Below the pieces are notes generated by a model that saw only the letters and a list, made by a program, of their open reading frames with translations, searched no databases and was not told the DNA's origin. The translations under genes and the position numbers were made by a program. Shown here piece after piece: positions 6,966-26,430 of a stretch of DNA of 64,000 nucleotides. The DNA is from Ruficoccus sp. ZRK36 (GTDB lineage: Bacteria; Verrucomicrobiota; Verrucomicrobiia; Opitutales; Cerasicoccaceae): positions 2,118,176 through 2,182,175 of the forward strand of contig NZ_CP080649.1 of NCBI RefSeq assembly GCF_019603315.1, written 5' to 3'. The stretch's first letter is position 1; each line of letters begins with the position of its first letter.

Positions 6966-7015
6966 TCCTGAATGAACCGTTCGGGGCGTCTCGTTCCGAA
7001 TGTGAACACTGATAT

Positions 7016-7044
7016 TTGACAATTTAATCACAAAATAATTAAAT
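7016..7044 (+). promoter_or_regulatory. Predicted sigma-70-type promoter before the DapA/NanA-like gene
   Basis: A perfect -35 box TTGACA (7016-7021) is followed after 17 bp by TTAAAT (7039-7044), a 4/6 match to TATAAT. An AT-rich inverted repeat (ATTTAAT 7022-7028, ATTAAAT 7038-7044) spans the spacer and could be an operator. It suggests a separate transcription start for the aldolase and symporter genes. Confidence 0.5.
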
Positions 7045-7090
7045 CGCGGGCGCTTTTCGAAGCCTCTCCGCGCGAACCTGATTTTAAGCT

Positions 7091-8020: not shown

Positions 8021-8123
8021 GGGAAGGTTTCACCTGAGTGACCAAGTTATTATACGGGTGGTGATCGAATCCGATTGTATGAAAAAGGAGTTTCGGCTAT
8101 AGACCCTCCTTCCCTCAGAGAAA

Positions 8124-9956
8124 ATGAATATCGAATACATTACCCTTTCCCTTTATCTTGGTGTCTTGCTTGTCCTGGGCATGGTTTTTGCCCGTTTCAA
8201 CAAGGACCTCAGCGACTTCGTTCGTGGTGGTGGCCGCGGCACGTGGTGGCTGGTTGGTACGAGTATCCTGATGAGCGGGATCAGTGCCTTTACTTTTACC
8301 GGAAACGCGTCCGCAGCCTACGAGGCCGGCCCCAGTCTGCTGGTTATCTATCTGGCTAACTGTATGGGGTTTGCCGCAGGCGGTCTTTTTCTGGGGCGGT
8401 GGTTCCGGCAGACCCGGGCCTATACGGGTGCCGATGTCGTACGGACGAGATACGGGGTGCCGGTGGAGCAGTTTTCTGCCGTCGCCGGGGTGTTTCTTGG
8501 ACCCTTTGGGGCTGCTATCCAGCTCTACGCGCTCTCGCTCTTTGCGAGTACGGTGCTGAACCTACCGCTGATTCCCGTTATGGTCTCGATCTGCCTGATC
8601 GTGGTTTTCTACTCCACCACAGGGGGAAAATGGGCGGTCATGGCGACGGACTTTGTGCAGGCGCTGGTCATGTTTGCGATTACGGCGCTGGTGTTTTACC
8701 TCTCACTGCGTGCGATCGGGGGATTTGGAGAATTTTTCAGCTATTTCAAAGATCCGCGTTTCGCGGAGGACTTCCGCTTCATTAACGATCCGGGCCATTT
8801 CCCGGGAGACCGCTTCACCTATCAGTGGGCCGTGGTGGTCTTTTTCATGCAGTTCTACGGGCAGATCAGCCTGAGCTCTGCCGGGCGCTACATCGCTGCC
8901 CGCGACGGTAGGGAAGCCTCCCGTGCCTCCTGGTGGGGCTTCATCATGATGGCGATCGGGAGCCTGATCTGGTTCGTCCCGCCGATGGTTGCGCGCTTCA
9001 TGTTTGCGGATGAGATCATGGCCAGCGGTCTGGAGAAACCGACCGAGACGGCTTACGCCTTTATCGCCATGAAGCTCCTGCCCAACGGGATGATGGGCAT
9101 GATGATTGCGGCCATGTTCGCGGCTACGATGAGCAGCATGGACTCCGGCCTGAATGGCCAGGTGGGTGTTATCGCCCGTAATATCATTCCTCGCCTGCGG
9201 GGTGCTTTGGGTTACCACAAGGACCTTTCGCCGAAGACGGAAATCCGGATCTGTCACATCGCCACGCTGGTTCTGGGCGCGATCATCATTTGCTATGCGC
9301 TGCTGCTGGCAAATCAGAGTGAGATTGCTCTCTTTGACGCGTACCTGATCATCGGCTCGGTCATTGGGGTGCCGATGGGCTTCCCGATGCTGATGGGCCT
9401 GTGGATCAAGAAGTTGCCCAAGTGGTCGTACTTCCCGATTTTTGCCGGCTGTATGATCCCCTCGATCTGGTCGTTTATCGACGGCCACCTGACCGGTGTG
9501 CAGTGGACGATCCAGGAGCGTACGATGTGGATTCTGGTCTGCGGGGGGCTTGCTACGGTTGCATGCCGCTTCATGTACCGTACCGTTTCCGAGAAATCCC
9601 GCGAGGAGATCGACGGCTTCTTCAAGACGATGCATAACCCGATCGATTACGAGAAGGAAATTGGCTCCTCGGTCATCGACTACGCGCAGTACTATCTGCT
9701 CGGTAAGTCCGTGATGGTGGTGGGTGCCCTCGTTTTGTTTATCCTGCTCGTTCCCAACGATATGTTCAACCGCCTGTGCATTCTGGCTGTGTCGTTCTTC
9801 GTTATCTTTTCGGGGCTCCTGCTATACCTCGGCGGACGCCGTGCGCAGAAGCGTGTGGAGGCGATTATGGCTGCGCGTGAGACCTCTGAACAAGAGGAGG
9901 AGTCCGAGCCGGTCGGAGATTTCAGTCAGGCTGCAATCGAGACTGATAAGGCCTGA
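8124..9956 (+). CDS. Sodium:solute symporter (SSS family)
   Basis: A 610-residue inner-membrane protein with about 13 hydrophobic segments and hallmarks of the SSS (SLC5-like) family: GISAFTFTGNASAAYEAG after the first helix, FMQFYGQISLSSAGRY in the middle, and AAMFAATMSSMDSGLNGQVG in the later core. It would import a sugar, sugar acid or sialic acid with Na+. Its place between an aldolase and a sulfatase makes it the likely uptake route for the lyase products. The C-terminal 30 residues are acidic and cytoplasmic. A strong terminator follows. Confidence 0.9.
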   Translation: MNIEYITLSLYLGVLLVLGMVFARFNKDLSDFVRGGGRGTWWLVGTSILMSGISAFTFTGNASAAYEAGPSLLVIYLANCMGFAAGGLFLGRWFRQTRAYTGADVVRTRYGVPVEQFSAVAGVFLGPFGAAIQLYALSLFASTVLNLPLIPVMVSICLIVVFYSTTGGKWAVMATDFVQALVMFAITALVFYLSLRAIGGFGEFFSYFKDPRFAEDFRFINDPGHFPGDRFTYQWAVVVFFMQFYGQISLSSAGRYIAARDGREASRASWWGFIMMAIGSLIWFVPPMVARFMFADEIMASGLEKPTETAYAFIAMKLLPNGMMGMMIAAMFAATMSSMDSGLNGQVGVIARNIIPRLRGALGYHKDLSPKTEIRICHIATLVLGAIIICYALLLANQSEIALFDAYLIIGSVIGVPMGFPMLMGLWIKKLPKWSYFPIFAGCMIPSIWSFIDGHLTGVQWTIQERTMWILVCGGLATVACRFMYRTVSEKSREEIDGFFKTMHNPIDYEKEIGSSVIDYAQYYLLGKSVMVVGALVLFILLVPNDMFNRLCILAVSFFVIFSGLLLYLGGRRAQKRVEAIMAARETSEQEEESEPVGDFSQAAIETDKA

Positions 9957-9993
9957 TCTTCCGTAAAAACTGGACTGAATTAATTTGAGCGAG

Positions 9994-10024
9994 CCCCCAT
10001 ACCCGAAACGGGTACGGGGGTTTT
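9994..10024 (+). terminator. Intrinsic terminator after the symporter gene
   Basis: A stem of CCCCCATACCCG and CGGGTACGGGGG (one mismatch, 12 bp, loop AAA) is followed directly by TTTT. It should end the symporter transcript and partly insulate the sulfatase gene. Confidence 0.85.
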
Positions 10025-10096
10025 CCATACGTATTAAACGCGTACAGGATGAAGGCGCTTGCGCTGCTGCTCGCGCGGAGGAAAATAGGAGTTCCG

Positions 10097-11638
10097 ATGA
10101 AAGTTGTTTACGTCCTTTTTGATTCGCTCAATCGCCACCTTTTGCCCCCTTACGGAGGCTCGATCATTGCCCCGAATTTCCAGCGTCTGGCCGAGCGGAG
10201 CGTCACTTTTGACACTTCCTATGTTTGCAGCATGCCCTGCATCCCGGCGCGTCGCGATATGCATACCGGGCGTCCAAACTTTCTGCACCGCGCCTGGGGT
10301 CCGCTTGAGCCGTTTGACGACTCGATGCCGAAGATGCTGCGTGATGCCGGTGTGTACACCCACCTCGTTAGCGATCACTGCCACTACTGGGAAGAGGGTG
10401 GTACTAACTACCACACGAAGTTTAACACCTGGGAGGCGATTCGTGGCCAGGAGGGTGACCCGTGGTTCCCGCAGGTGCGTGACCCCGAGCCGACTGAGGC
10501 CTCCATCCTGCGTTCGGAGACAGGCTCGCTGAAGCGCCCCTGCTCGGGTGCCGACGCGATGGTCCGGCAGGACGTGATCAATCGGCAGGCCATGCCCGAG
10601 CCACACCTGCAGCCGATGTCTCAGGTCTTCACTCAGGCCCGTCATTTTGTAGAGCGTAACCATGCCGAGGATAACTGGTTCCTGCAGATTGAGACTTTTG
10701 ACCCGCACGAGCCGTTCTTCAGCCACCGCTGCTACAAGGATCTCTACGACGAGCATTTCAAGAACTACAAGGGCCGCGATATTGACTGGCCTCCGTACCG
10801 GGCGGTGAAGGAAACGCCGGAAGAGGTCGAGCACATGCGCTATCAATACGCAGCGCTCGTCTCCATGTGCGACGAAAAGATGGGGCATGTGCTGGACTGG
10901 ATGGACCAGTACGAGATGTGGGATGATACCATGCTCATCGTCGGCACGGACCATGGGTTCCTGTTGGGCGAACATGACTGCTGGGCCAAGTGCTGGACTC
11001 CCTTCTACGAGGAGATCGCGCACACCCCGTTCTTTGTCTGGGACCCACGCAGCGGGGCCCGTAACGAGCGCCGCAAGGCCCTCGTCCAGCCCTCGATCGA
11101 CGTCGTCCCGACCGTGCTGGGTGCCTTTGGGCAGGAGCCGACCCCGCGCATGACCGGGCACGACCTGGCAGCGACGGTGGCCGACGATACCCCCGTGCGC
11201 GAGACCGCGGTCTTCGGGTTGTTCGGGGCGCACGTCAACATCACCGATGGGCGCTACGTCTACATGCGCGGCAACCCGGACGGCCAGCCCAATAGCCCTC
11301 TGTACGAGTATACGCTGATGCCCGCCAACATGCGGGAGGCATTCCCAACATCGCGCTTCCAGGAGCCGTTTGAAACCGCGAGTTTTGATTTTACCCAAGG
11401 TTGCCACGTGATGAAAATCCCCGCTGCCTCGGGTATGCCGGGAGGTGAGTCCATCACTCCGACGTTCGACACGAAGCTGTTTGATCTGAATCAGGATCCG
11501 GATCAGGAGTCACCGATTCAGGATGCAGCGGTGGAGGAGCGTCTGCTGGCCGCGCTTGATGGACACATGCGTCAGCTAGATGCCCCTATCGAGCAGTGGG
11601 AGCGCCTCGGCATGGCCTGCGAGACGGCCAAGCTCTAG
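10097..11638 (+). CDS. Cys-type type I sulfatase
   Basis: A 513-residue sulfatase of the alkaline-phosphatase superfamily. The FGly signature CIPAR (Cys48-x-Pro50-x-Arg52, followed by RDMHTGR) marks the cysteine that must be oxidised to formylglycine. The early metal-binding Asp is in VLFDSLNRH, and the later metal site is GTDHGFLLGEH. It would remove sulfate esters from a carbohydrate. An ATG 48 bases upstream is possible, but the start at 10097 has a good ribosome site (TAGGAG) and matches the family N-terminus (MKVVYVLFDS). No signal peptide is apparent, so it probably acts on imported, already cleaved sugars. No maturase gene lies in the window. Confidence 0.9.
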   Translation: MKVVYVLFDSLNRHLLPPYGGSIIAPNFQRLAERSVTFDTSYVCSMPCIPARRDMHTGRPNFLHRAWGPLEPFDDSMPKMLRDAGVYTHLVSDHCHYWEEGGTNYHTKFNTWEAIRGQEGDPWFPQVRDPEPTEASILRSETGSLKRPCSGADAMVRQDVINRQAMPEPHLQPMSQVFTQARHFVERNHAEDNWFLQIETFDPHEPFFSHRCYKDLYDEHFKNYKGRDIDWPPYRAVKETPEEVEHMRYQYAALVSMCDEKMGHVLDWMDQYEMWDDTMLIVGTDHGFLLGEHDCWAKCWTPFYEEIAHTPFFVWDPRSGARNERRKALVQPSIDVVPTVLGAFGQEPTPRMTGHDLAATVADDTPVRETAVFGLFGAHVNITDGRYVYMRGNPDGQPNSPLYEYTLMPANMREAFPTSRFQEPFETASFDFTQGCHVMKIPAASGMPGGESITPTFDTKLFDLNQDPDQESPIQDAAVEERLLAALDGHMRQLDAPIEQWERLGMACETAKL

Positions 11639-11782: not shown

Positions 11783-14599
11783 CTACACGGTGGCCGCTGC
11801 CGGGGCCTTGGGGGCAGACTCCAGCTGGGCGTAGGCTTCGCGTACGAATCCGCGTTCATCCTGCGCAAAGGCGAGGGCCTCTGGCTGGATGGGCAGCCCG
11901 AGCTGCGTGCGTGTACGAGCGATGATCAGATGCAGCTGCCAGGAGTGGTCCTGGTGCGTGACGACGCCCTGGTCGTTATAGAGCTTCTTCTGGGGGATCT
12001 TGTAGATCGTATGCCACAGCGAGCGCGAGGGCGGTTGGACGGCATCATCCACCGGGCTGGCCGTCAATGCCTCAAGGGCGCTGACGAGGGTGGGGTGCGG
12101 ACCGACGCGCTCGGCGAGGCGCTCCAGCGTCCCGGCCAGGATCGTGCGCACGTTTAAGGGCATGTCCTTCTGTCCGGCGAGCTGGCAAAGCGCATCGAGG
12201 CACTCGCTGTCGCCGCCACGGCGCAGCATCATGACCGCCTGCAGCCAGAACGGGATGTCCACGCACTGGCCGAATGCACCGGGTACCCAGTGCTCTTCGG
12301 GATCGGGTCCTTTTTCCTGATCCAGGATTGCTTGGATGAGGCGCGGCTGTGCGCGGCCGTCTCCCCACATGGCGAGGATGGCGGCGCTGTAAAAAGATTC
12401 GGTGGGCTCGGAGCTGTTGAGACGCTCCAGCAGGGCGTCGCGATACTGCTCCTGCTCTTCATACAGATACCAGAGGAAGACGCCGGGGAGCTTTTTCTCA
12501 AAGCAGGCGAGCAGGTCGTCCGGGCGCGGGTTGGTGTCTTCAACCGGATCGCTGGCACCGCTCTCTGCGAGCATGGCCTGCAGCTGGTCCATCGGCACGC
12601 GGCGGCTTTCACCATCTAAGGGCAGGCAGAGTACGGCGGCGTAGCCAGCGGCTTCACCGAAGCGCTGCATCTCCCGCTGCATGCGCAGCCCGTAGGAGGC
12701 GTCATTACTGATGCCGGATGCACGGCAGGCGATCCATACGTTGGTCAGACCTTCGGGGAGGAGTGAGCGGTACGGGACCTGGCAGTACTGGAGGTTCTTA
12801 AAGCCGCGGCAAATCCAGTAATAAAACGCGAGCTCGTCGCTCTCGAATTCGAAGTCCACGGAGTGCGTGTCGGCGACCGTGCGGACCTCGCCAATGCTGT
12901 CTTCAAAGCTGTGATGCGCGACGAGGTCGTCGAGGGTGACGGCGTAGTCTGTCGCCACATTACGGGTCTGGCGGACGCCGAGCGCGGCAGCCATGGTGAT
13001 CGGGCGGTGGTCGGCGCTCCAGTCCTTGCACTTATACTGGGCCAGGCCGGTTAGCTTGGCACGGGTGGCGTCGCATGGGTCGTTAAAGTCAGCCCAGCCC
13101 GCGTCGAAGTTACCGCCATGCACGAGCAGGCCGCGCGGGCCGCTGCGCAGATAGAGGCCGGACTGGGAGTAGGCCAGCTTACGGGCGTCTCCGGGGCGTC
13201 CCTCGTTATTGATCGGGGTGCCGGCATGGTGGCATAGGTCGCCGTCGCCGGTAGAGTCGATGAAGGCGGTGGCAGGGATACGGGTCAAAACGCCGTCGAC
13301 CATCGCGATCAAGGCCAGCACGCGACCGCTGTCATCCTTACAGACTTCACATAGATGGGTGTTTCCGAGGAAGCGGACGCCGTCCTGGTCGAACTGCTTG
13401 AGCAGGACGAGTTTCTTGGCGTCGTGGTGCCAGCTGCCTTTTGCGGTGTGGCCGGTGAAAAGCTCGCAGGCCAGACCGGTGGTCTTATCCAGCTCGTCCT
13501 GGATGCCGCCGGGGTGCCCGTAGAAATAGCCACAGATCATCCCACCTGTACCGATGCCACCGGGATAGGCGGCCTGGTCGAGACAGAGCACACGCGCCCC
13601 CTTGCGGGCGGCGGCAATCGCTGCCACGGCTCCGGCGGTGCCAGTGCCAGCGACGACGACATCGTAGCCTTTGAGCTCCTCGGTGGGCTGGAGCTCGCAC
13701 TCGGGCAGCTCGGAGAGGGCCTCTTGGGCGTCCTCACCGGGAACGAGTTTGAGCGCTCTGAGACCGAGCTCGAAGCGTTCGTTGAGGGTCTCGATTTTAT
13801 CAGCCTGGAGTGCCGGGCTGAGGACGAAAAGGTTGGAGGGCAGGCCTTCCTGGGTGGGGGCCTTGGACTGGCTGTAAACCGGGTAGTCCTTCAGAGAGCA
13901 GTGGCTGACGACGAAGTGCGGGCAGTCCGCACCTGAGCGCAGGCTCTGCAACTGCTTTTCGAGTTCGGTGTGCCAGAGGCCTTTGGCTTTCCAGCGCAGG
14001 TGGCGCTCATTCGGGCTGCCGGGGATGGACTCCCATGTCAGGTCCGAGTCTTCCGCGACCAGCTTGGCCGCATGGGCATCAAGCCGCTCAATATCGCTAT
14101 CGCAGTAGATGACTGCGGTACGCATCAGGGCATCCGGCTGCTTGGGCTGCACCTTGGCACCGGCACAGAGGCTGGCGAGGGTGCCGCGCTCGCTGGCATC
14201 GACAAAGGTATGGGCCTGGATATTGCGGAGGCCTTTCTTCGTAGAGACGGTGAGGGCCTGCAGGGTGCTACCCTCTACGGAGACTGCGACTGCCGGGGTG
14301 TAGAGCAGGGTGCTCAGGGGAGCCTGGGTGTTGAGAAGCTCGTCCGCAGCGGTGATTTCCATCCGCGGGGCGTCGACGGATACCATGCCCTCGGGCAGCC
14401 ACTCGCGGAGCTTTTCACCGGCGTCAGCGGCATCGACTTCCAGCGCGCGGCTGGATTCCCACAGGAGGTCTCCGTCCTCGCCGACGAGTACGGTACTGAG
14501 ACCCTGGCTGGCCAAGGCACGGGCGGCAGAAAAGCCGACCCAACCGCTGCCATAAACGGTAACGTGGTTGACCCGGTCAAAGGGAGACGAGGCTTCCAT
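11783..14599 (-). CDS. Large FAD-dependent oxidoreductase with two Rossmann motifs
   Basis: About 938 residues. A dinucleotide-binding motif near the N-terminus (VTVYGSGWVGFSAARALASQ) is followed near residue 330 by a second, complete FAD-binding motif (YDVVVAGTGTAGAVAAIAAA, then PGGIGTGGMICGYFYGHPGG). The second half matches the FAD_oxidored family common in glycan loci of Verrucomicrobia and Lentisphaerae (FIDSTGDGDLCHHAG). The C-terminal about 250 residues look helical and carry no catalytic motif. Start is uncertain: ATGs at 14614 and 14674 are in frame, none with a clear ribosome site. It is divergent from a LacI gene, its likely regulator. The substrate is unknown. Confidence 0.78.
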   Translation of the reverse strand: MEASSPFDRVNHVTVYGSGWVGFSAARALASQGLSTVLVGEDGDLLWESSRALEVDAADAGEKLREWLPEGMVSVDAPRMEITAADELLNTQAPLSTLLYTPAVAVSVEGSTLQALTVSTKKGLRNIQAHTFVDASERGTLASLCAGAKVQPKQPDALMRTAVIYCDSDIERLDAHAAKLVAEDSDLTWESIPGSPNERHLRWKAKGLWHTELEKQLQSLRSGADCPHFVVSHCSLKDYPVYSQSKAPTQEGLPSNLFVLSPALQADKIETLNERFELGLRALKLVPGEDAQEALSELPECELQPTEELKGYDVVVAGTGTAGAVAAIAAARKGARVLCLDQAAYPGGIGTGGMICGYFYGHPGGIQDELDKTTGLACELFTGHTAKGSWHHDAKKLVLLKQFDQDGVRFLGNTHLCEVCKDDSGRVLALIAMVDGVLTRIPATAFIDSTGDGDLCHHAGTPINNEGRPGDARKLAYSQSGLYLRSGPRGLLVHGGNFDAGWADFNDPCDATRAKLTGLAQYKCKDWSADHRPITMAAALGVRQTRNVATDYAVTLDDLVAHHSFEDSIGEVRTVADTHSVDFEFESDELAFYYWICRGFKNLQYCQVPYRSLLPEGLTNVWIACRASGISNDASYGLRMQREMQRFGEAAGYAAVLCLPLDGESRRVPMDQLQAMLAESGASDPVEDTNPRPDDLLACFEKKLPGVFLWYLYEEQEQYRDALLERLNSSEPTESFYSAAILAMWGDGRAQPRLIQAILDQEKGPDPEEHWVPGAFGQCVDIPFWLQAVMMLRRGGDSECLDALCQLAGQKDMPLNVRTILAGTLERLAERVGPHPTLVSALEALTASPVDDAVQPPSRSLWHTIYKIPQKKLYNDQGVVTHQDHSWQLHLIIARTRTQLGLPIQPEALAFAQDERGFVREAYAQLESAPKAPAAATV

Positions 14600-14710
14600 G
14601 GGATTTAATTGCATCTTACTACAGTGGGGAATACGCTTGCTGAAGGCAAATGGATGATTATTGCACTTGTTCAACGGACAGCAATTTTTTGAGACTAAAT
14701 AACCTACCCC

Positions 14711-15784
14711 ATGTCCTCTGATAAATCCAGAACAACCCTTCAGGATATCGCTGATCGTCTGGGCTACGGGCGCTCAACCATATCGCTCGCGCTGCGCAAC
14801 CATACGAGCCTGCCCAAGGCGACCCGCGATAAGATCCAGCGGGTCGCGAGGGAAATGGGGTATCAGCCCAGTCCGCTGGTTTCGGCGCTGATGGCGCAGA
14901 TCCGGGACAAGCGAAAGAGCCAGCGTGAGCAGATCGGCATTGTCACGCGTTTTGATGGACCGATACGGCAGGTGAAGGTTTCCGGGCATTATTATCAACT
15001 GCTGTACAAGGCGATCGAGGAGGCGGCCACCGATTTAGGCTACGACATCACAGAATTCCCGATCCGCAAAGAGACGCCGATGCTGTCGGGCAAGCGTCTG
15101 TCGCACATTCTCAAAACCCGCAATATTCACGGGCTTATCTTCTTTCCCGGCGGAAATTTCTTCGGGGACAAGGACTTCCCCGAACTGGAGTGGGAGCATT
15201 TTTCCACGGTGATGATCGGGTATAATACCTGCCTGACCGAGCACCATTCCGTGAACTCCCACTATAGCTATGATATCGACCTGGCCCTGCAGCACGCGAT
15301 TCGCTGTGGTTATAAGCGGATAGGGCTGACCATCACGGAGTTTATGGAGCGTGCGACGGACTTCGGCTGGAGCTCCCGCTTCATGCTCTATCAGAGTCGT
15401 ATCGCTCCTGAGGACCGTATTCCGATCATGCACTTTAATGACTACGACGAGGTCGTGCCCTGGTTCCAGGAGTACCGGCCCGAGGTCATCCTGTGTGCGG
15501 ATAATGGCCCGATCCATGCACTGGAGAGGGTTGGTCTGAGTGTCCCGAAGGACGCAGGGGTCATCTTGCTCATTCAGCGCAACATCGAAGGTTGTGCGGG
15601 CGTGAACCCCTTCACGGACGAGGTGGGGCGCGCTTCGGTGGAGCTGCTTAACTCGCTGCTACAGACAAACCAGCGCGGTCTGCCACAGTTTGCCCGCAAT
15701 ATTACGGTCAAAGGAAGCTGGGTGCCCGGAGCATCCTTCCCAGAACCAGCCGAGTCATCAGCACAAAAAAAGACCGGGCGCTGA
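14711..15784 (+). CDS. LacI-family transcriptional regulator
   Basis: 357 residues. The LacI-type helix-turn-helix and hinge are at the N-terminus (TTLQDIADRLGYGRSTISLA, then GYQPSPLVSALMAQIR), followed by a periplasmic-binding-like effector domain (HGLIFFPGGNFF, CGYKRIGLTI, and the dimerisation end DEVGRASVELLNSLLQTNQ). It is 39% or so similar by eye in layout to the LacI gene at 22395-23435, including the PNPLVSALM-like hinge, suggesting a related pair. It is divergent from the FAD oxidoreductase and convergent with the lyase fusion gene. Ligand probably a sugar acid or oligosaccharide. Its 3' end overlaps the terminator of the opposite-strand gene. Confidence 0.9.
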   Translation: MSSDKSRTTLQDIADRLGYGRSTISLALRNHTSLPKATRDKIQRVAREMGYQPSPLVSALMAQIRDKRKSQREQIGIVTRFDGPIRQVKVSGHYYQLLYKAIEEAATDLGYDITEFPIRKETPMLSGKRLSHILKTRNIHGLIFFPGGNFFGDKDFPELEWEHFSTVMIGYNTCLTEHHSVNSHYSYDIDLALQHAIRCGYKRIGLTITEFMERATDFGWSSRFMLYQSRIAPEDRIPIMHFNDYDEVVPWFQEYRPEVILCADNGPIHALERVGLSVPKDAGVILLIQRNIEGCAGVNPFTDEVGRASVELLNSLLQTNQRGLPQFARNITVKGSWVPGASFPEPAESSAQKKTGR

Positions 15785-15803
15785 AGTCTGCTTCAGCACC
15801 CGG
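15764..15803 (-). terminator. Intrinsic terminator of the lyase fusion gene, overlapping lacI 3' end
   Basis: On the minus strand a 13-bp stem (CCGGGTGCTGAAG pairing with CTTCAGCGCCCGG, one G-U) with a 4-base loop is followed by seven T. It terminates the gene at 15846-19061. The stem and T-tract lie inside the last codons of the opposite LacI gene. Confidence 0.8.
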
Positions 15804-15845
15804 CCTGGGTAAGATTATCAAGGAGAGTCGGCTTTCGCCAGTGCT

Positions 15846-18800
15846 CTACTTTGTCGGATTGCTGGCCGTCGGCGACTTGGACTCAGGGATGAACTGCGCG
15901 TTATTGAGGCGCAGGTTGACGGTCTGGTCTAGCTTCTCGCGGACGATTTCGCTGGCGCGGGCCAGTTCCGGAGAGTCGTACTCTTCAGCAGCCTGGAGGA
16001 AGATGACAAGCGCCTGACCATACACGCCGCGCATGTTGCCGATCTCCTGCTTGGGCCACGGCTTCTCGCCGATGACGTAGGGGAGGAGGTACATGCAGGC
16101 GACTTTGATCGCGGGCGAGCCGGGCTTGTTCGGGCTCTCGTAGTTCCACAGGTCCATGCCGAGGTACTTGCCGCAGTTGGCGAGGGTGACGAGGGACTTG
16201 AGGCTGTAGAGGCTGTAGGAGAAGCTGCGGTTACGCTCGTTCTCGTAGACGAAGATACCCTCCGGGGAGATCTGGTCGTCGAAGTAGGTGTGGGCCCGTT
16301 CCATGGCGGTCTCGGCGCGTTCGCGATTACCGGCGTACAGCGAGTAGACGGCGACCTGTGCGGTGTACCAGGAGCCATGGTTATTCTTGTTCTGGGCTTC
16401 TTCCTTACCGAAGGGGCTGGTGACCAGCCACTCGGTGTATTCATCGAACCACTGCTTGAGGCCGTCTTCGTTCTCCTGCGTCCAGGCCTCAGAGCCGGGC
16501 AGCAGCTTAACAAAGTCGAGCATGCGGATCATGTCGGCCCCGAAGATGATGCCAATGGGCATGCCCTCGTGGACGCCCGGCTGGGATGAGCCGAAGTTGA
16601 AGTTCGGGTTCATGCGCGTGCTGGGGTCGATGAACCAGGTGTGCAGGAAGTCGGTAGCCTTGGTGGCGTACGCTTCTTCTTCGGTGTAGAACCAGGCCTG
16701 CCCGAGCTCGACGACGCTGCTGCGCAGATCGCGGAAGCGCTGCATGTCGTACTTGTCGGTCGTGCTGTCCGGGTTGATCAGGCCGTCCTGGCGGATCCAG
16801 GGCATCCCGTCCTCGGTGTTCGGGTTGGGCCAGGAGTACTTACCAATGGTGTGGAAGTCATGCGGATCACCGGAGGAGGCTACCATCTTCTGCGGGTCAG
16901 TGACGGTGAGCAGGGGCTTGGACAGTTCCTTGTCGGCGCGGGCCTTGAGCGCGTCCACGGCTTCGACAAATGCGGGGACGCCGTCCTCGTAGGCTTTGCG
17001 GTTGGCCACGAGATCAGCGTAGTTCATCTGGATCAGCTCCGGGGTACCGGTCGGGATGGCGATCGAGGGAACCTTGTCCTTGCTGGGCATTGCGCTCACG
17101 GTCTCAGCACTGACGGAGATCGTGCTTTCCAGGTCGAGGCCGTCCACGGCTTCGGTGGTCTGAATCACGACGCTGGCATGCGTGCCGGGGCGCTCATTCT
17201 TCGGACGGTAGATCGTGTTGTCCGGCATGGTTTCGACCCAGACCTTGACGGGCTGGTTTGCGTCGTAGGTGATATCGATATTACCGACGCGGATACCGTT
17301 TTCCAGAGTCTTGTACGGGGTGTCGGCGGGGACGGCGAGGTGCCAGCGGAAGGTGATGAAGTCGGGCTCCTTGAGGACGACGTGGTCGCTGACGTCGAGG
17401 TACTCGGCATCCCAGGTGGCGGTGCGTTCCCAGGTGTCAACGCTGGCATAGCAGGCTGAGCCGTCGACGCTGACTTCGCCGCCGCTCTTGTCGAGGCGGT
17501 GAACGGTCATCGGGGCGGTTTTACCCTCGGGGTCGCGGAGCTGTCCGGCCCCGCCCTTGAGCGCTGCGTCGGAGAGCTTTTCGGGGGGCAGGTTACCGAC
17601 CTGGAGCACGTTGTGACCGGCTACGCTGCGGTAGTGAGTCGGGTGATCCTTAATGCCATAGGAGAATAAACCGGCCTCCATGAGCACGGGCTGACCCTTG
17701 ACGACGTAGCTGAGGTGGCCGCGGTCCTGGTGGTCGTGGAAGTCAGTGGGGTGACCACCGCGCATCCAGAAGCCCGAGGCGTCCTTGTCCCAGCTGTTGC
17801 GCCAGTTGACGCGTGTGGCGATGGGGTAGTACTCGAAAAGCGGCGCCTCCACGGGCGTGACGGTCGAGGCCGCAGCGAGTGTGCCGTCCAGCGAGGTCGG
17901 GTAGTTCTTACCGAGCGGTCCGGTAAAGGCCCACTTGGCGACGGGGTTACCGGTCATGGCGACGAAGGTAGCCAGCATTTCAGAGCTGGCACCGAAGGAG
18001 CCGCAGTCAAAGGCGTTAACGCAGGTGCCGCCAGGCTGCTCGTGCTCGACGAGCCAGACGGGGAAGTTCTGCATGAAGGGGTGGTCGATCAGGCGGGTGT
18101 CGCCGTGCAGGGCGGCGTCACGGGCAGCGGATACAATGCCGTCTACGGCCAGAGTCCCGTAGGACATGCCTTCGACGAATTCGCCCTTTTCGCCCTGTGA
18201 ATTAAGCGAGCGCAGCAGGTTCTGGACGGCCAGCTCGTAAGCCTCAGGGTGCTTGTCCTTACCGACAAAGAGGCAGGCGCGCAGCAGACCCTCGTTCGGG
18301 ATGATCCACTGGTTACTGTAGACGGCTTCCTTGTCGTAGTACCAGGTGCGCTTGGTTTCGTAGTCGTCGAGCAGGCCGACGATTTCTTCCTCCATGCGCT
18401 GCTTGAGGGCCGCCATCAGCTCCGGCGGGATGGAGTTGTCGGGCATGCACTCGACCGTGTCGCAGATCATGCGGATGGCCCAGCCCGTGCCGAGCCATGC
18501 GCCGTCACCCTCGGGGGGGAGGGTCGGCCGGCCATTGTTGATCGACCAGCCGGGGCGTTCAAAAGGAACCCAGGTGGCGACTTCTTCCAACTGCTCGATC
18601 ACATAGTCCGAGTAGCGGCTGTTACCGGTGAGGTTTGCCGCTGTGGCGACAACCGGCAGGCGTCCGGAGAGCTGGTGGGCGAAGCGGGCATCGGCCAGCG
18701 AGAGCGCGCTCTTTTTCCACGTCTCCGGCGAGACCTTGTTCATGTGCGCCGGTTGCGTGTTGTACTTTAGCGCGCCCATCTCCCGCAGAGTGTCGAGATC

Positions 18801-19061
18801 GTCCGTGCGGACCATCTTGTCGCTTTGGGAGTATTTCTCGGCCAGGCTGAGCAGGGCCTGGACTCGGGATGAGTCGGGGTCCAGCTCTGAGATCTGCTCA
18901 CGCAGCGTCAGTGTGTAGGTCGGCTGGCCGTCCTTGGATTGAACCACCGTGGCGCTCTGAGCGGCAGGGGTGGTTGCCGGTTTATCGGCGAATAGGGTGC
19001 CCCCAAGAAAGAGGGGACACAGCATGAGTGCTGTGGTTAGTCGAGGGTATCGCATGTGCAT
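15846..19061 (-). CDS. Secreted fusion: heparinase II/III-like lyase plus alginate-lyase domain
   Basis: 1071 residues with an N-terminal signal peptide (to about residue 26, TLFADKP). Residues about 60-690 form a heparinase II/III-like lyase: toroid motifs (YSNQWIIPNEGLLRA, SQGEKGEFVEGMSYG) and a beta-sandwich with the His motif FHDHQDRGHLSYVVKG. From about 715 to 1060 there is a second enzyme domain of the alginate_lyase (PF05426/PL5-like) type: DPHDFHTIGKYSWPNPN, then KNNHGSWYTAQVAVYSLYAG, where Asn-Asn-His is the expected catalytic patch, then NERNRSFSYSLYSLKSL. It thus carries two candidate lyase centres in one secreted chain. The N-terminal part is a paralogue of the protein at 20374-22365. 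Substrate probably a uronate polymer. Confidence 0.85.
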   Translation of the reverse strand: MHMRYPRLTTALMLCPLFLGGTLFADKPATTPAAQSATVVQSKDGQPTYTLTLREQISELDPDSSRVQALLSLAEKYSQSDKMVRTDDLDTLREMGALKYNTQPAHMNKVSPETWKKSALSLADARFAHQLSGRLPVVATAANLTGNSRYSDYVIEQLEEVATWVPFERPGWSINNGRPTLPPEGDGAWLGTGWAIRMICDTVECMPDNSIPPELMAALKQRMEEEIVGLLDDYETKRTWYYDKEAVYSNQWIIPNEGLLRACLFVGKDKHPEAYELAVQNLLRSLNSQGEKGEFVEGMSYGTLAVDGIVSAARDAALHGDTRLIDHPFMQNFPVWLVEHEQPGGTCVNAFDCGSFGASSEMLATFVAMTGNPVAKWAFTGPLGKNYPTSLDGTLAAASTVTPVEAPLFEYYPIATRVNWRNSWDKDASGFWMRGGHPTDFHDHQDRGHLSYVVKGQPVLMEAGLFSYGIKDHPTHYRSVAGHNVLQVGNLPPEKLSDAALKGGAGQLRDPEGKTAPMTVHRLDKSGGEVSVDGSACYASVDTWERTATWDAEYLDVSDHVVLKEPDFITFRWHLAVPADTPYKTLENGIRVGNIDITYDANQPVKVWVETMPDNTIYRPKNERPGTHASVVIQTTEAVDGLDLESTISVSAETVSAMPSKDKVPSIAIPTGTPELIQMNYADLVANRKAYEDGVPAFVEAVDALKARADKELSKPLLTVTDPQKMVASSGDPHDFHTIGKYSWPNPNTEDGMPWIRQDGLINPDSTTDKYDMQRFRDLRSSVVELGQAWFYTEEEAYATKATDFLHTWFIDPSTRMNPNFNFGSSQPGVHEGMPIGIIFGADMIRMLDFVKLLPGSEAWTQENEDGLKQWFDEYTEWLVTSPFGKEEAQNKNNHGSWYTAQVAVYSLYAGNRERAETAMERAHTYFDDQISPEGIFVYENERNRSFSYSLYSLKSLVTLANCGKYLGMDLWNYESPNKPGSPAIKVACMYLLPYVIGEKPWPKQEIGNMRGVYGQALVIFLQAAEEYDSPELARASEIVREKLDQTVNLRLNNAQFIPESKSPTASNPTK

Positions 19062-19130: not shown

Positions 19131-19164
19131 AACAAATACAGAGGCGAAGTTACCTCCGCCTCTG
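19131..19164 (-). terminator. Hairpin terminator after the PEP-CTERM gene
   Basis: CAGAGGCG and CGCCTCTG form a perfect 8-bp stem (19139-19146 with 19157-19164). On the minus strand it is followed by the T-rich TATTTGTTTG. It is a moderately good terminator for the gene at 19258-20166. Confidence 0.6.
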
Positions 19165-19257: not shown

Positions 19258-20166
19258 CTAGCGGCGGCTCTTGCTGCGCTTGTAGCGATTCGCGAGCAGG
19301 AGGACGCACAGCCCGAAGAGCAGGCCGGTGGTGGCCGGCTCGGGGATGGAGGCGGTCACGACGGAGTCCCAGTCCGTGCCGATGCGCATATCGTCGAGCA
19401 GGAAGTAGGAGTTTTCGTCAGCCAGGAAGAAACTGCGGATCTGCAGGCCGCCGAAACCGGTGGAGCCCGTGTCGTCAATGTCTATGGTGGCTACAATGGT
19501 GTTGAGCGTGGTAGACTCGTCGGTTGTCGCGGGATTCAGCCAGAGGGTAGCTGTATTGTACTTGCTGCCGTCCCAGCCGCTGTACTTGACCACCGCAAAG
19601 TAGGTCGTTGCGTACTGGATGTGGTTGTCAACGAGGTCCTGGTTCGAGCTGCCGCCATTACGGACGCCTGCGTCACCGCCCTTGGCGATGATGCCGATGG
19701 TGCTGTTTTGAGCGACGAATTCGTTCTGTCCATCCACCGGTGCATAGTGGGTGAATTCGTTACCGATATTACCCGTGGCGTTGTCGTTGTTCACGACTTG
19801 AAAAATGAAGCTGGAGAAGTAGTTCTGCCCGGAGGTGTCGGGAGTTGAGTAGATATTACGGGCCAGAATCAGTGGGGCGTCGTTGGTAATCTTAATCGCG
19901 TTACCACCGCCGCGGACAACACCGCCTTGATTGTAAGTCATGGATGAACCATCTACTACTTCAACCACAAAGCTGTTGTTGTTATACCAGCTGTCGTTCC
20001 AGCCGGAGCCACCGCTTTGGCCGATGACATTCGTGCCAGTGGTGTATCCGTTGAAATCGTCATAGGCGATGGGGGCGGCAGCCTGTGCCCACAGACTGAG
20101 CAGACAGCCGACGGTAGCGGCCAGGGAAGTCTTTGAAAAAACAGAGGAAGTCATTCTCATTTTCAT
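19258..20166 (-). CDS. PEP-CTERM sorted secreted protein
   Basis: 302 residues: signal peptide ending in WAQAAAP, a beta-rich middle (APIAYDDFNGYTTGTNV, then GGLQIRSFFLADENSYFLLD), and a classical PEP-CTERM signal (SIPEPATTG, hydrophobic helix, KRSKSRR). The opening YDDFNGY with DNxIGQSGGSGW-like context is typical of concanavalin-like or laminin-G-like exported proteins of Verrucomicrobia. It would be processed by an exosortase at the cell envelope. It lies between two heparinase-like lyases, so a carbohydrate-binding or surface role is plausible. No catalytic residues identified. Confidence 0.8.
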   Translation of the reverse strand: MKMRMTSSVFSKTSLAATVGCLLSLWAQAAAPIAYDDFNGYTTGTNVIGQSGGSGWNDSWYNNNSFVVEVVDGSSMTYNQGGVVRGGGNAIKITNDAPLILARNIYSTPDTSGQNYFSSFIFQVVNNDNATGNIGNEFTHYAPVDGQNEFVAQNSTIGIIAKGGDAGVRNGGSSNQDLVDNHIQYATTYFAVVKYSGWDGSKYNTATLWLNPATTDESTTLNTIVATIDIDDTGSTGFGGLQIRSFFLADENSYFLLDDMRIGTDWDSVVTASIPEPATTGLLFGLCVLLLANRYKRSKSRR

Positions 20167-22394: not shown

Positions 22395-23435
22395 CTAGGT
22401 CGGTTGATCCTCGGGGAAAGAGTACCCGGGGGACCAACTGCCCTTGATCGCAACGGTCTGTGGGTAGGAAGGGGGGCCGAACTGATTTGTCTGGAGCAGC
22501 TGGACGAGCAGGTCGACCGCAACACTCCCGAGCCGCTCCGTGTGCGGATTGATGCCGGCCATGTCGCTGTTTCCGCGGTTAGTCAGGTGGATCAGGCGGA
22601 CGTCGCCGGGGACACTGATCCCAATCTTTGCTAAAGCTTTTTTAACATCGGCGATTGAGATGAGGATGACTTCCGGGCGGTGTTTGCTGTACCACTCAGG
22701 GCTTTCTTCAAGAAGGTCACTTATGGTACGGGAAAGAAGTACGGGGACACGCTGTTCCTCGGGCATGCTCTGTTGGAAGAACAGAAAACGTGAAGCCCAA
22801 GTGTGATTGGTCGCACGGTCAGCAGATTGATCAATGGCGAGTCCGATTCGTGTGTAGCCTGCATGGAGGGCCCGCTGAATAGCGCAGTCGATGTCGTAGT
22901 AGTAATCAGTGGCAACCTGGTGCAGGTTTCTCTGGCTGGTGTTAAACCCGACGAGGACGGTGGTCAGGTCGGGAGAGTTCAGCAGCGGATAGTCCATGGT
23001 GACAGTGTCATTGTCGCGACCGGGAAGCAGGAGTACTCCGTGGATGCCGCGCGCCTTGAGAATTCCACTGATGCGGGAGTCGCTGATGGTATTATCTCCG
23101 AGGTAGAACTCGTCCACACCGTAGCCACGCATCTCAGCCTGCTTATTGGCCGAATCGTAGATCATGCGGTAAAAATCATTGATCTTACGGCTTGTGTGAA
23201 TAGGGCGCGTGAAGCGGCTGATTATGGCGACACTCTCCTTGCGGGGGCAACGCTTGTCCCGTACCTGGCGCATGAGAGCGGAGACCAGTGGATTTGGGCG
23301 GTAGCCTAGCTCGTGGGCGGCCTCCTGAATCGCTTTCAGTGTCTCTGGCTTCAGGCTCGGGTCATTACGCAAGGCCAGGGATACGGTCGAGAGTGCGTAG
23401 CCGGTGGCGTTGGAAATATCCCGGAGGGTAGGCAT
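22395..23435 (-). CDS. LacI-family transcriptional regulator
   Basis: 346 residues. The N-terminal DNA-binding helix-turn-helix (PTLRDISNATGYALSTVSLALR) is followed by a hinge (LGYRPNPLVSALMRQVRDKR) nearly the same as in the LacI protein at 14711. Then comes the effector-binding domain (ARGIHGVLLLPGRDND, AGYTRIGLAID, RLGSVAVDLLVQLLQTNQFG). It lies immediately upstream of the lyase at 20374-22365 on the same strand, its likely target. Two CTTAAG hexamers 8 bp apart lie just before its start (23442-23461) and could be an operator. Confidence 0.9.
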   Translation of the reverse strand: MPTLRDISNATGYALSTVSLALRNDPSLKPETLKAIQEAAHELGYRPNPLVSALMRQVRDKRCPRKESVAIISRFTRPIHTSRKINDFYRMIYDSANKQAEMRGYGVDEFYLGDNTISDSRISGILKARGIHGVLLLPGRDNDTVTMDYPLLNSPDLTTVLVGFNTSQRNLHQVATDYYYDIDCAIQRALHAGYTRIGLAIDQSADRATNHTWASRFLFFQQSMPEEQRVPVLLSRTISDLLEESPEWYSKHRPEVILISIADVKKALAKIGISVPGDVRLIHLTNRGNSDMAGINPHTERLGSVAVDLLVQLLQTNQFGPPSYPQTVAIKGSWSPGYSFPEDQPT

Positions 23436-23648: not shown

Positions 23649-24497
23649 CTAGCGACGACGCAGACGCAGGCCGATCAGTGCCAGCAGCCCCAGTCCGAGC
23701 ATGCCCATGGTGGATGGCTCGGGGACGGAGGTGAAAGCTACGTCATCCAATCCTATGATCGGGACAACGCTCGTGCCAGCATCTTGGTTGAAGGTGATGC
23801 TGATCGAAGCGATGTCGTAGTCGTCGGACTCATAGCCGAAGTAGAGTGCGTTGGGGTCATTGGGGTCATCCGTGTCCAGCTCCGAGTATAGGACGGTCTG
23901 GGAGGAGAGCACGCCACTGGAGGCGTCGAGGAATTCTACTACGATGGATGATGTCAACGCGAAGCGGGCTGCCGGTGCGGTGAGGGTGAAGCCGGCAGCC
24001 TGTACACTATTGACGCCGGTGGTGAACTCTTCTGTGCCGCTGTTGTAGCTGCCAAAGTCGATCGTTATGGTGGGCGTGAGAGCTTCGGTCGCGTTGGTGG
24101 GTAGGTAAATGTAGTAGCCAGAGTTGGTCGCGGTATCCGGAGTAGAGGAAGTTAAGAACCCAGGGTTCGTGATTTCATTTCCGGTGTTGGTGCCGCTGAA
24201 GCTTTTGGTGTAGCGGAGGTCGGGCAGGGTACTGTCGGTGTAGCTGACGATGTTCGTGAGGCCAGAGCTAGAGAAGCCGGGGACACTCTGCAGGGCATAA
24301 ATGTCACTTCGTGCATTCAGTGTTGCACTCGAAGTGCTGCCGGTGGCCTCCAGAGTGATCGAGCGGGTGGGGGCGATAACGGTGCCAGGTCCCTCCGCCA
24401 GAGGAAGATCGGTGACGACGGCAGCCGATACGGTGCCGGCGGCGAGAACGAGAGAGCAAAAGCTCAGGGCAAGGTGCATTTTATGGGGTATCTGCAT
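23649..24497 (-). CDS. PEP-CTERM protein, member of a local paralogous trio
   Basis: 282 residues: signal peptide (to about TVSAA), then a conserved core shared with the two genes upstream on this strand: LPLAEGPGTVIAP, SATLNARSDIYALQ, TIDFGSYNSGTEEFTTG, and a closing IGLDDVAFTSVPEPST. The end is a full PEP-CTERM signal (VPEPST, helix, LRLRRR). No known enzyme motif; the core looks like a beta-sandwich. The function is unknown, probably surface or matrix associated. A perfect 18-bp palindrome lies 46 bp upstream of its start. Confidence 0.8.
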   Translation of the reverse strand: MQIPHKMHLALSFCSLVLAAGTVSAAVVTDLPLAEGPGTVIAPTRSITLEATGSTSSATLNARSDIYALQSVPGFSSSGLTNIVSYTDSTLPDLRYTKSFSGTNTGNEITNPGFLTSSTPDTATNSGYYIYLPTNATEALTPTITIDFGSYNSGTEEFTTGVNSVQAAGFTLTAPAARFALTSSIVVEFLDASSGVLSSQTVLYSELDTDDPNDPNALYFGYESDDYDIASISITFNQDAGTSVVPIIGLDDVAFTSVPEPSTMGMLGLGLLALIGLRLRRR

Positions 24498-24542
24498 GAC
24501 TCAATATTACATATCGGTGCATCTGTGCCGCAAAAAGTATTC

Positions 24543-24560
24543 CTTTGAACACGTTCAAAG
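24543..24560. promoter_or_regulatory. Perfect palindrome, candidate repressor operator
   Basis: CTTTGAAC and its complement GTTCAAAG are separated by AC (18 bp, perfect arms). It lies 46-63 bp upstream of the PEP-CTERM gene at 23649-24497. The size and symmetry fit a LacI- or GntR-type operator, and three such regulators are encoded nearby. No T-tract makes a terminator unlikely. Confidence 0.5.
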
Positions 24561-24588
24561 CCGTGCGCGACAGAGTACTGCGAGAGAT

Positions 24589-24615
24589 AAAAAAAGGCCG
24601 CGCTTGTGCGCGGCC
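24589..24615 (-). terminator. Intrinsic terminator after the PEP-less paralogue
   Basis: GGCCGCGC-TTGT-GCGCGGCC (perfect 8-bp stem), followed on the minus strand by seven T. It ends the transcript of the gene at 24669-25427. Confidence 0.88.
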
Positions 24616-24668
24616 TGAGTGCCCGTCTGGGGCAAAATCAATAATGCCAACCTGGCTGGTTTGTTCGC

Positions 24669-25427
24669 TTACTCTGTCGCAAATGCGATGTCGTCGAGAC
24701 CAAGGAGCGGTGAGTTGTCTTTGACGGTGCCGGCCTTCTGATTGATGTCGATCTGGATCGAGGCGATACTGTCGCCGCTGGCTGCATAGCCGAAGTAGAT
24801 GCTCACGGTTTTCGTGGTGGCGGTATCCAGATCGGAAGCAGGGATGGCCTGGGTGCTGAGGACCTTACCGCTGGTGGACAGGAATTTCACCTGGATGGAG
24901 TCTGTCAGCCGGTAACGTACGCCCGGAGCCACCATCGTGAAGGCGGCTACGGCGACACCGGGCTTGCCGGTGGTGAACGCTTTGGAGCTGGCTTCGTAGC
25001 TGCCGAAGTCAATCGTCACCGAGTATGTAAAGGGGGCCTTGCTATCCATGCCCGGGTGGATGAGGTAGCCGGAGCCATAGGAGCTGAGGAAGCCACTGCT
25101 GGAAATTTCCTTACCGGTGCCGCTTTTTTCGCCTTCCTGCGGCGTGATGCGGATGGCCAGATCGTCCGCGCCAAAGGTAAAGATGTTGGTCTTGTTGGCA
25201 GAGCTGCCCGTGAAGTTCTGCAGGACGCAAATGTCGGCCCGGGATTCGAGGGTGCTTTGGGCGGTGCTGCCGGAAGCGGCCTTGATGTCGGGGCGGTTGG
25301 GGGCGATGCTGTTAGCGGCTCCCTTGGAGAGGGAAGCCGTGGTGGAGACGTTGGCCGCAAATGCCGTGCTGGAAAGTGCGAGGGCTGCCACGCCGATCAG
25401 TGTCGTAAAGGTAACAGGGTACTTCAT
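24669..25427 (-). CDS. Secreted paralogue lacking the PEP-CTERM tail
   Basis: 252 residues from the chosen start, which gives a clean signal peptide (MKYPVTFTTLIGVAALALSS, cut near FAAN). The frame is open 84 codons further upstream, but that stretch overlaps the terminator of the next gene and is not protein-like. The core matches the neighbours at 23649 and 25576 (QSTLESRADICVLQNFTG, VTIDFGSYEASSKAFTTG, LLGLDDIAFATE). It stops exactly where the other two continue into VPEPST/IPEPST, so it has no exosortase signal. It would be released into the periplasm or medium. Function unknown. Confidence 0.78.
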   Translation of the reverse strand: MKYPVTFTTLIGVAALALSSTAFAANVSTTASLSKGAANSIAPNRPDIKAASGSTAQSTLESRADICVLQNFTGSSANKTNIFTFGADDLAIRITPQEGEKSGTGKEISSSGFLSSYGSGYLIHPGMDSKAPFTYSVTIDFGSYEASSKAFTTGKPGVAVAAFTMVAPGVRYRLTDSIQVKFLSTSGKVLSTQAIPASDLDTATTKTVSIYFGYAASGDSIASIQIDINQKAGTVKDNSPLLGLDDIAFATE

Positions 25428-25521
25428 CCCGGCAGTTTGTGCCAAGTCCTGCTCCGGCTCAAAGCTAAAGACACTGTACCCGTTTAATCCAAAGGCTGCG
25501 GAAGGGACTCGCTGTGAACAC

Positions 25522-25550
25522 AAAAAAGGCCGTACCCAGCGGTACGGCCT
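25522..25550 (-). terminator. Intrinsic terminator after the PEP-CTERM gene at 25576
   Basis: AGGCCGTACC-CAGC-GGTACGGCCT (perfect 10-bp stem), followed on the minus strand by a run of six T. It separates the second and third members of the paralogous trio. Confidence 0.9.
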
Positions 25551-25575
25551 GAAAGAGGAAATAACAGTTGTTCCC

Positions 25576-26430
25576 TTAGCGGCGCCGGCGGCGGATGAGC
25601 ATGCCCACGAGGACGGCTGCACCCAGCAGGGCGGCGCTGGTGGAGGGCTCAGGGATCGAGGTGAAGGTGATGTCATCAAGGCCTACCATCATGCTGCTGG
25701 CGAGTGTACCGGCATCACGGTTGATGGTGATTTCGACCGAGCCGATCAAATCGCCGGTGGTCTCATACCCGAAGTACATGCCGGGGTTGCTTGAGGCATC
25801 GTTGATAATGTCAGTGCCCAGAATGGTTTGGGTCGAGAGGGTCGAGCCTGAGGTGGACTTGAACTCGACGACGATCGAGTCGGTCAGCTCAAGGCGTCCC
25901 TTGGCAGAGTTGAGGGTGAAGGCACTGGCATAAACTCCCGTGCCGGTGGTAAACTCTTCTGTGCTGGAGTTATAGCTGCCAAAATCAATCGCGAGGGCAT
26001 AGCTGATGGCAGAGGCCTCAGTTGTCGGTGTCTGGATGATATAGGCCGAACCATAAGAACTTGCGAACGAGTCATTGGTCGTGTTCTCGGTGGAGGTAGA
26101 GCTCCAGAAATTCGCAGGATCTGAGGCGAGGCGGATCTGAACGTCCGGCTTAGTCTCGTCGGTAAAGGCAAAGATGGCCGTCGTTTTGGAGGCGATGCCA
26201 GTGAAGTTCTGCAGGACAAACAGGTCGGAGCGGGCTTCCAGCGTGCTCTGGGCTGTGCTGCCTGAGCCGGTCAGCGTCGGCGTGCGGTCAGGAGCGATGA
26301 CGTCGCCCGGACCTTCTGCCAGCGTGATATCGGTGGTAACGGTTGCCGCTGTAGCGGTGCTAAACGCAAAGACAGATGCGGCAAGGAGTTTGGCTATATA
26401 TCGAGGGGTGATCATAGTGTATAATCTCAT
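25576..26430 (-). CDS. PEP-CTERM protein, member of a local paralogous trio
   Basis: 284 residues, or 279 from a second ATG at 26415. A signal peptide (ending TATAATV) is followed by the trio's core: ITLAEGPGDVIAPDRTPTL, AQSTLEARSDLFVLQNFTG, AIDFGSYNSSTEEFTTG and VGLDDITFTSIPEPST. The tail is a full PEP-CTERM (IPEPST, hydrophobic helix, RRRRR). Highly similar to the genes at 23649 and 24669, so they probably arose by tandem duplication. An AT-rich inverted repeat (ATGTATT-T-AATACAT, 26468-26482) lies upstream. Function unknown. Confidence 0.8.
   Translation of the reverse strand: MRLYTMITPRYIAKLLAASVFAFSTATAATVTTDITLAEGPGDVIAPDRTPTLTGSGSTAQSTLEARSDLFVLQNFTGIASKTTAIFAFTDETKPDVQIRLASDPANFWSSTSTENTTNDSFASSYGSAYIIQTPTTEASAISYALAIDFGSYNSSTEEFTTGTGVYASAFTLNSAKGRLELTDSIVVEFKSTSGSTLSTQTILGTDIINDASSNPGMYFGYETTGDLIGSVEITINRDAGTLASSMMVGLDDITFTSIPEPSTSAALLGAAVLVGMLIRRRRR

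Follow-up and report, generated by a model that had tools for sequence, protein, structure and literature searches.

Polysaccharide lyases (PL) of the PL38 type, those of the heparinase II/III type and those carrying two catalytic domains in one chain are all known. The gene treated here lies in a stretch of 64,000 nucleotides from Ruficoccus sp. ZRK36 (contig NZ_CP080649.1; the whole stretch is called the window below) and encodes a heparinase II/III-type N-terminal half (N half) followed by a PL38-like C-terminal half (C half), and it is this pairing that is new. For BoPL38 of Bacteroides ovatus, excerpts of PMC13169297 name mannuronate and guluronate as substrates and assign the abstraction of the proton to H243 and Y298. 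In PL33, Y291, H444 and Y470 have been discussed as a shared catalytic apparatus (PMC11848413, in excerpt). An Asn is described as the carboxylate neutraliser of such lyases, and GAGase III is reported to need a His at the adjacent position for its activity on alginate (PMC12088678, in excerpt). None of the titles and opening lines of abstracts among the literature matches listed names a fusion of a heparinase-type lyase with PL38.

The fused protein is best read, with a probability of roughly 0.6, as a secreted lyase in which two domains are catalytic and which serves a locus for a sulfated, uronate-containing heteropolysaccharide.

Domain layout of the fused protein

A preliminary description of the gene, made from the letters alone, had proposed that a single secreted chain combines lyases of two different folds. 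In a Pfam scan of 19 window proteins, Hepar_II_III_C was found at residues 433-578 of the fused protein (expectation value, E, 1.6e-11; score 44.7 bits, Pfam cut-off 24), Alginate_lyase (PF05426) was found at residues 720-1002 (E 8e-69), and no single Pfam family covered the full length. The two motifs on which the description had relied, FHDHQDRGH and KNNHGSWYTAQ, were located at residues 441-449 and 892-902, and each half contains the catalytic residues known from relatives of solved structure. Of the two outcomes that the description named as refuting it, one PL family over the whole length or catalytic residues missing from one half, neither was seen. Together with the PDB sequence matches and a low-confidence model, these results bear the proposal out: the protein apparently consists of two differently folded lyases in one secreted chain, with active sites that appear complete. 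The further idea of the description, that such an enzyme could cut and trim one and the same polymer, is conjecture.

The junction between the halves looks genuine from the sequence. The linker of about 20 residues is free of stop codons, no remnant of a signal peptide was recognised in it by eye, and the PL38-like part starts at about the position of the mature start of a sister protein encoded elsewhere in the same genome (locus L068). It is hardly credible that an error of sequencing or assembly joined two neighbouring genes. Such an error could account for the lack of a second genome with the fusion in our surveys, but the frame is single and uninterrupted, its guanine plus cytosine content at third positions is high throughout (0.74-0.92 in ten full blocks), and a PL38-like gene was found at 0 of 19 other places carrying members of the N-half family. 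These 19 places correspond to 21 loci, as L084 and L085 repeat L115 and L116, and their flanks are of unequal length.

The PL38-like half

The seven best PDB sequence matches of the whole protein all fell on its second half, which matched 3nfv at 4.5e-63 and six BoPL38 sequences at 1.8e-42 to 3.8e-41 (8bdq at 3.3e-42). Counted on the PDB sequence alignment, N894, H895, R943 and Y949 correspond to BoPL38 N242, H243, R292 and Y298; N242 and R292 we take to be members of the catalytic set as well. Conservation was followed in 47 sequences, namely the window and the BLAST matches up to 1e-15 in frames of at least 250 residues from the 85 fetched loci, a row being dropped if one 40-residue stretch repeated another row's or the window's. 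N894, R943 and Y949 were kept in all 47 and H895 in 46, and the equivalents of BoPL38 Y91 and D108 are also kept in the C half (Y742 and D759).

A loop of the C half is changed. The position of BoPL38 Q173 holds Gln in 44/47 sequences and a nearby loop position holds Arg in 44/47, and both are lost in the fused C half, where they are replaced by S825 and M834, and in L068. Q173 is the residue mutated in the deposited BoPL38 structure 9fi3, as judged by its title. Because these two near-invariant loop residues of the family are replaced, action of the C half on alginate is doubtful; it is therefore called PL38-like here and no alginate activity is claimed. Furthermore, at V938, N941 and N944, which surround the catalytic R943, the fused protein has residues that no other of the 47 sequences shows there. 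The loss of the two loop residues and the three changes around R943 would fit a chain with one catalytic and one binding half, in which the PL38-like half turned to sugar binding. This is improbable, since N894, H895, R943, Y949 and the Y91 and D108 positions are all kept, and both losses are shared by L068, a lyase that has its own gene and its own X modules (see below).

The heparinase II/III-type half

Membership of the N half in the heparinase II/III superfamily is given by the Hepar_II_III_C match, which lies above the Pfam cut-off, whereas its place among the PL families is less plain. With the single sequence the best PDB matches were weak (4mmi at 0.0078 over 52 residues; the PL33 structure 8r75 at 0.11). 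With a profile of 16 rows (alignment A1), PL33 was reached at 1.3e-7, PL35 (9o3q) at 2.6e-7 and a PL15 alginate lyase at 3.8e-4. For comparison, the window gene at 4968-6965 reaches PL33 at 1.6e-39, and the PL35 structure 9o3q fits the N half of the weak model with a Z score of 21.4 but a root-mean-square deviation (rmsd) of 14.6 A. The N half is thus not clearly a member of either PL33 or PL35. A score of 15.3 bits against the NCBIfam HepC equivalog cut-off of 700 bits places it outside PL12/HepC, and the A1 profile search of the PDB gave no row for PL17, PL21 or PL39 at E 0.01; structures of these three families turned up when the weak model was compared by fold.

The columns of N250, Y301, H442 and Y468 are nearly invariant across the 16 rows of A1. 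In the HMMER alignment to 8r6z, Y301, H442 and Y468 correspond to PL33 Y291, H444 and Y470. N250 is predicted to be the neutralising Asn, an assignment of our own by analogy. If it is correct, the Asn-His pair of alginate lyases is not found in the N half, which has Asn-Gln instead (motif SNQW).

Two relatives may be mentioned separately. The heparinase-type protein at L083:2970-5003 has neither the active-site Asn nor the Tyr and His motifs, sits on a long tree branch and is perhaps a pseudoenzyme. At L075:5300-8068 a xylose-isomerase-like TIM barrel is fused to a heparinase-type lyase, with sulfatase matches on either side.

Predicted structure

A whole-chain model built from five sequences was weak, with a mean predicted local distance difference test score (pLDDT) of 57 and a predicted template modelling score of 0.42. 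Its layout consists of helices, then beta-strands to about residue 650, then a second helical domain at 681-1053. The second helical domain fits 3nfv (Z 27.1, 3.5 A over 327 residues) and BoPL38 (Z about 24); the N half resembles PL35, PL17 and PL33 structures with Z 16-21 but rmsd values of about 15-17 A.

Origin and rarity of the fusion

The stand-alone lyase encoded nearby (P0002, 20374-22365) had been described as a clear paralogue having the first half only. It does have only the first-half domain, without an Alginate_lyase match in Pfam, and is homologous to the first half of the fused protein (39% identity), but it is not the closest relative of that half. A tree of the N half with 22 rows places the fused half among nine proteins of other genomes, with support of 92/93, which is below full, while P0002 groups with four other copies of its own genome (100/100). 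A tree of the C half with 45 rows joins the fused half to L068, which belongs to the same genome (support 100/99). Tree rows were dropped for an E above 1e-20, for fewer than 200 residues or for repeating a 40-residue stretch. From these positions of the two halves, the fusion looks as if two lineages of separate descent had been joined, and less as if P0002 had been duplicated and a domain added. P0002 as a recent source of the fused N half is not supported by the tree. An alternation between fused and adjacent forms was likewise considered and rejected, no PL38-like gene having been found in the flanks of the 19 other places of the N-half family; one further strong place (G076:C101) lay outside the wide-flank comparison.

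No second protein with both halves was found in whole-protein surveys of 54 relatives, of 372 genomes of the order, 384 of the class and 387 of the phylum, or of 189 genomes of another order and 395 of the phylum of Cyclobacterium. The sets overlap, those of 54, 372, 387 and 384 include the window's own genome, the thresholds of the five large surveys ranged from 1e-40 to 1e-100, and scoring was per genome on the top two places (372, 387, 384 and 395) or on up to four (189). Among the 85 fetched loci, the window's own frame was the sole one matching both halves. A scan of genome contigs gave two Cyclobacterium loci with the PL38-like half only, and tblastn with A1 or with the C half found no relatives on viral contigs. 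Matches were obtained in 17 plasmid records, none covering 80% of the protein and none matching the N half; those listed lay on the PL38-like half or began just before it.

Other fusions of these lyases are frequent. Behind the other enzyme, as here, PL38-like domains are fused to GH2 in six genomes of the same order (L076-L079, L152, L153) and to a PL6-type domain in four (L080, L148, L154, L155); single fusions involve an esterase-like domain (L150) and a ThuA domain (L157). In the window's genome, L068 carries two X modules, and three copies of module Y are joined to a heparinase-type relative (L066:7992-12050); the TIM-barrel protein of L075 has been noted above. Shuffling of these lyases is common here, and the present pair is so far single.

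Locus, modules X and Y

The features of the window are collected in Table 1. On the strand of the fused gene the order is LacI-type regulator, P0002, X, fused lyase and then a terminator-like hairpin. Because a terminator-like site also precedes the fused gene, it may be transcribed on its own; terminator-like sites are at chance level in the region (10 found against 9.8 expected), and promoter counts likewise. The first gene of the opposite-strand group (665 amino acids) has no Pfam match and is a PL33-like lyase by its match to 8r6z, and the sulfatase of that group lies at 10049-11638. The 19 other N-family places carry a sulfatase in 4 cases, LacI in 7, the FAD oxidoreductase in 2, a pyruvyltransferase-like gene in 3, X in 3, Y in 2 (one fused) and a PL33-like gene in 1.

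Table 1. Features in and around the fused lyase gene (window positions; N250 to Y949 are residues of the fused protein).
Feature	Position	Strand	Basis or remark
Fused lyase gene	15846..19061	-	1071 amino acids; uninterrupted open frame; two Pfam families
Sec-type signal peptide, about residues 1-25	18987..19061	-	judged by eye
Heparinase II/III-type half, about residues 50-650	17112..18914	-	Pfam, alignment A1, profile matches, weak model and fold matches
N250, predicted carboxylate neutraliser, motif SNQW	18312..18314	-	A1 conservation; role by analogy with PMC12088678 (excerpt)
Y301, predicted acid/base, EGxxY	18159..18161	-	aligned to PL33 Y291
H442 in FHDHQDRGH	17736..17738	-	aligned to PL33 H444
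Y468	17658..17660	-	aligned to PL33 Y470
Linker, about residues 652-672	17046..17108	-	sequence; low model confidence
PL38-like half, about residues 673-1045	15927..17045	-	PF05426, PDB sequence matches, fold match
Altered loop: S825 (BoPL38 Q173), M834 (loop Arg)	16560..16589	-	47-row conservation
N894-H895	16377..16382	-	aligned to BoPL38 N242-H243
R943 and Y949	16215..16235	-	aligned to BoPL38 R292, Y298
Terminator-like hairpin just 3' of the fused gene	15771..15806	-	16 pairs and T run
Terminator-like site between X and the fused gene	19139-19164		
Module X, PEP-CTERM protein	19258..20166	-	no other domain match
Stand-alone heparinase II/III-type lyase P0002	20374..22365	-	663 amino acids; Hepar_II_III_C 2.4e-11
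LacI-type regulator	22395..23435	-	Pfam
Three module-Y proteins in a row	23649..26430	-	two with PEP-CTERM match
LacI-type regulator, convergent with the fused gene	14711..15784	+	Pfam
FAD (flavin adenine dinucleotide)-dependent oxidoreductase	11783..14674	-	Pfam; relatives beside heparinase-type genes in L066, L074
PL33-like lyase, DHDPS-family protein, sodium:solute symporter, sulfatase	4968..11638	+	

Modules X and Y have no PDB sequence match at E 0.5, and a model of Y from the three window copies reached a mean pLDDT of 48, too low for a structure search. X-related loci (L068, L069, L082, L118 and L139-L141) were met in two genomes of the genus, beside or fused to polysaccharide lyases or sulfatases. 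The strong matches of X (12, with E below 1e-60 in 49 genomes) lie at 8 places, in the window's genome and one congener, and at all 8 places a lyase or sulfatase adjoins or is fused. Many of these rows built the profile and some were found through adjoining lyase or heparinase-type genes, the chance rate of adjacency being uncorrected, so that the association of X with lyases and sulfatases is suggestive only. Since two X relatives are fused to the sister lyase L068, an accessory, perhaps binding, role of X is suggested.

Two observations from the surrounding loci may be added. A gene related to polysaccharide pyruvyl transferase stands beside heparinase-type or module-Y genes in L064, L073, L082, L142 and L143, and a PL33-like gene at L141:5347-7468 (-) is apparently split into two overlapping frames.

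Proposed function

In the proposed mechanism, the heparinase-type half, an (alpha/alpha) toroid with a beta-sheet, would abstract the proton at C5 of a 4-linked D-uronate; N250 would neutralise the carboxylate, and Y301, H442 and Y468 would serve as acid/base. The PL38-like helical barrel would perform the same beta-elimination through N894, H895, R943 and Y949 behind a changed substrate loop. Both halves would serve a probably LacI-regulated locus for a sulfated, uronate-containing and probably algal heteropolysaccharide, in which the PEP-CTERM proteins X and Y would have an accessory role, perhaps that of binding the polymer.

Three grounds, each of them indirect, lead us to infer that the target is a sulfated heteropolysaccharide with uronates and not plain alginate: the Asn-Gln pair, the change in the loop of the C half, and the company of a sulfatase and a PL33-like lyase. 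Sulfatase matches at 4 of the 19 other N-family places also count for the preferred reading. A two-step alginate lyase, in which the PL38-like half would cleave alginate internally and the oligomers would be trimmed by the heparinase-type half in the manner of PL15/PL17, is considered unlikely. The substrates of BoPL38 (PMC13169297, in excerpt), the PL15 match of the N profile at 3.8e-4 and the fit of the weak model's N half to PL17 alginate lyases (Z 19.9, although at an rmsd of 16.4 A) speak for it. However, the N half has no His beside the presumed neutralising Asn, the C half has lost the loop Gln and Arg, the window contains a sulfatase and a PL33-like lyase, and no PL6- or PL7-type Pfam match occurred among the 19 window proteins scanned.

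Several points weigh against the two-domain lyase for a sulfated heteropolysaccharide. The altered loop could mean a weakened or dead C half, to which the three unique residues around R943 may be added. The confidence of the model is low, and therefore the geometry of the active sites is not readable from it. The fusion is known from one instance. No sulfatase match was obtained at 15/19 N-family places, whose flanks differ in length, and of the three sulfatases used as queries two were taken from the N-family places themselves.

A more far-reaching version of the preferred reading is put forward tentatively. The protein would be a lyase of dual chemistry directed at a single sulfated heteropolysaccharide, the N half founding an unassigned PL family and cutting one uronate linkage, the loop-altered C half together with L068 founding a non-alginate subgroup and cutting another, and X and Y, as new binding families, presenting both to the polymer. 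New substrate specificities may be sought in the altered PL38-like pair and in the unassigned heparinase-type family, and modules X and Y are candidate new carbohydrate-binding families tied to acidic polysaccharides. Since P0002 and L068 of this genome are separate relatives of the two halves, the gain from coupling two eliminations of different families in one chain could be measured.

Comparison with known systems

The C half is like the Bacteroides ovatus proteins BoPL38 (8bdq and mutants) and BACOVA_01668 (3nfv) in sequence, in fold (Z 24-27) and in the Asn-His-Arg-Tyr set. Those proteins have 404 and 382 residues and one lyase domain, whereas the fused C half is without Q173 and the loop Arg and stands behind another lyase. 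The N half has a similar fold, by profile and weak model, to the PL33 hyaluronate lyase BtPL33HA (BT4410; 8r6z, 8r75) and to PL35 (8khv, 8khw, 9o3q), and keeps the equivalents of Y291, H444 and Y470 of BtPL33HA; it differs in reaching PL33 and PL35 only at about 1e-7 with the 16-row profile and in its SNQW motif. Two lyase domains per chain are also reported in excerpts for the alginate lyases Aly35 of Vibrio sp. H204 (PMC11671496) and AlyC8 of Vibrio sp. C42 (PMC9781882). Aly35 is placed in the PL7 superfamily in the excerpt of PMC11671496, whereas the two domains of the fused protein belong to different Pfam families. In the GH2 and PL6-type fusions of related genomes the PL38-like domain likewise stands behind a catalytic domain, although the partner is never heparinase-type. 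Because PL38-like domains are thus fused to GH2, PL6-type and esterase domains, the present pair is a new combination within a known type of fusion.

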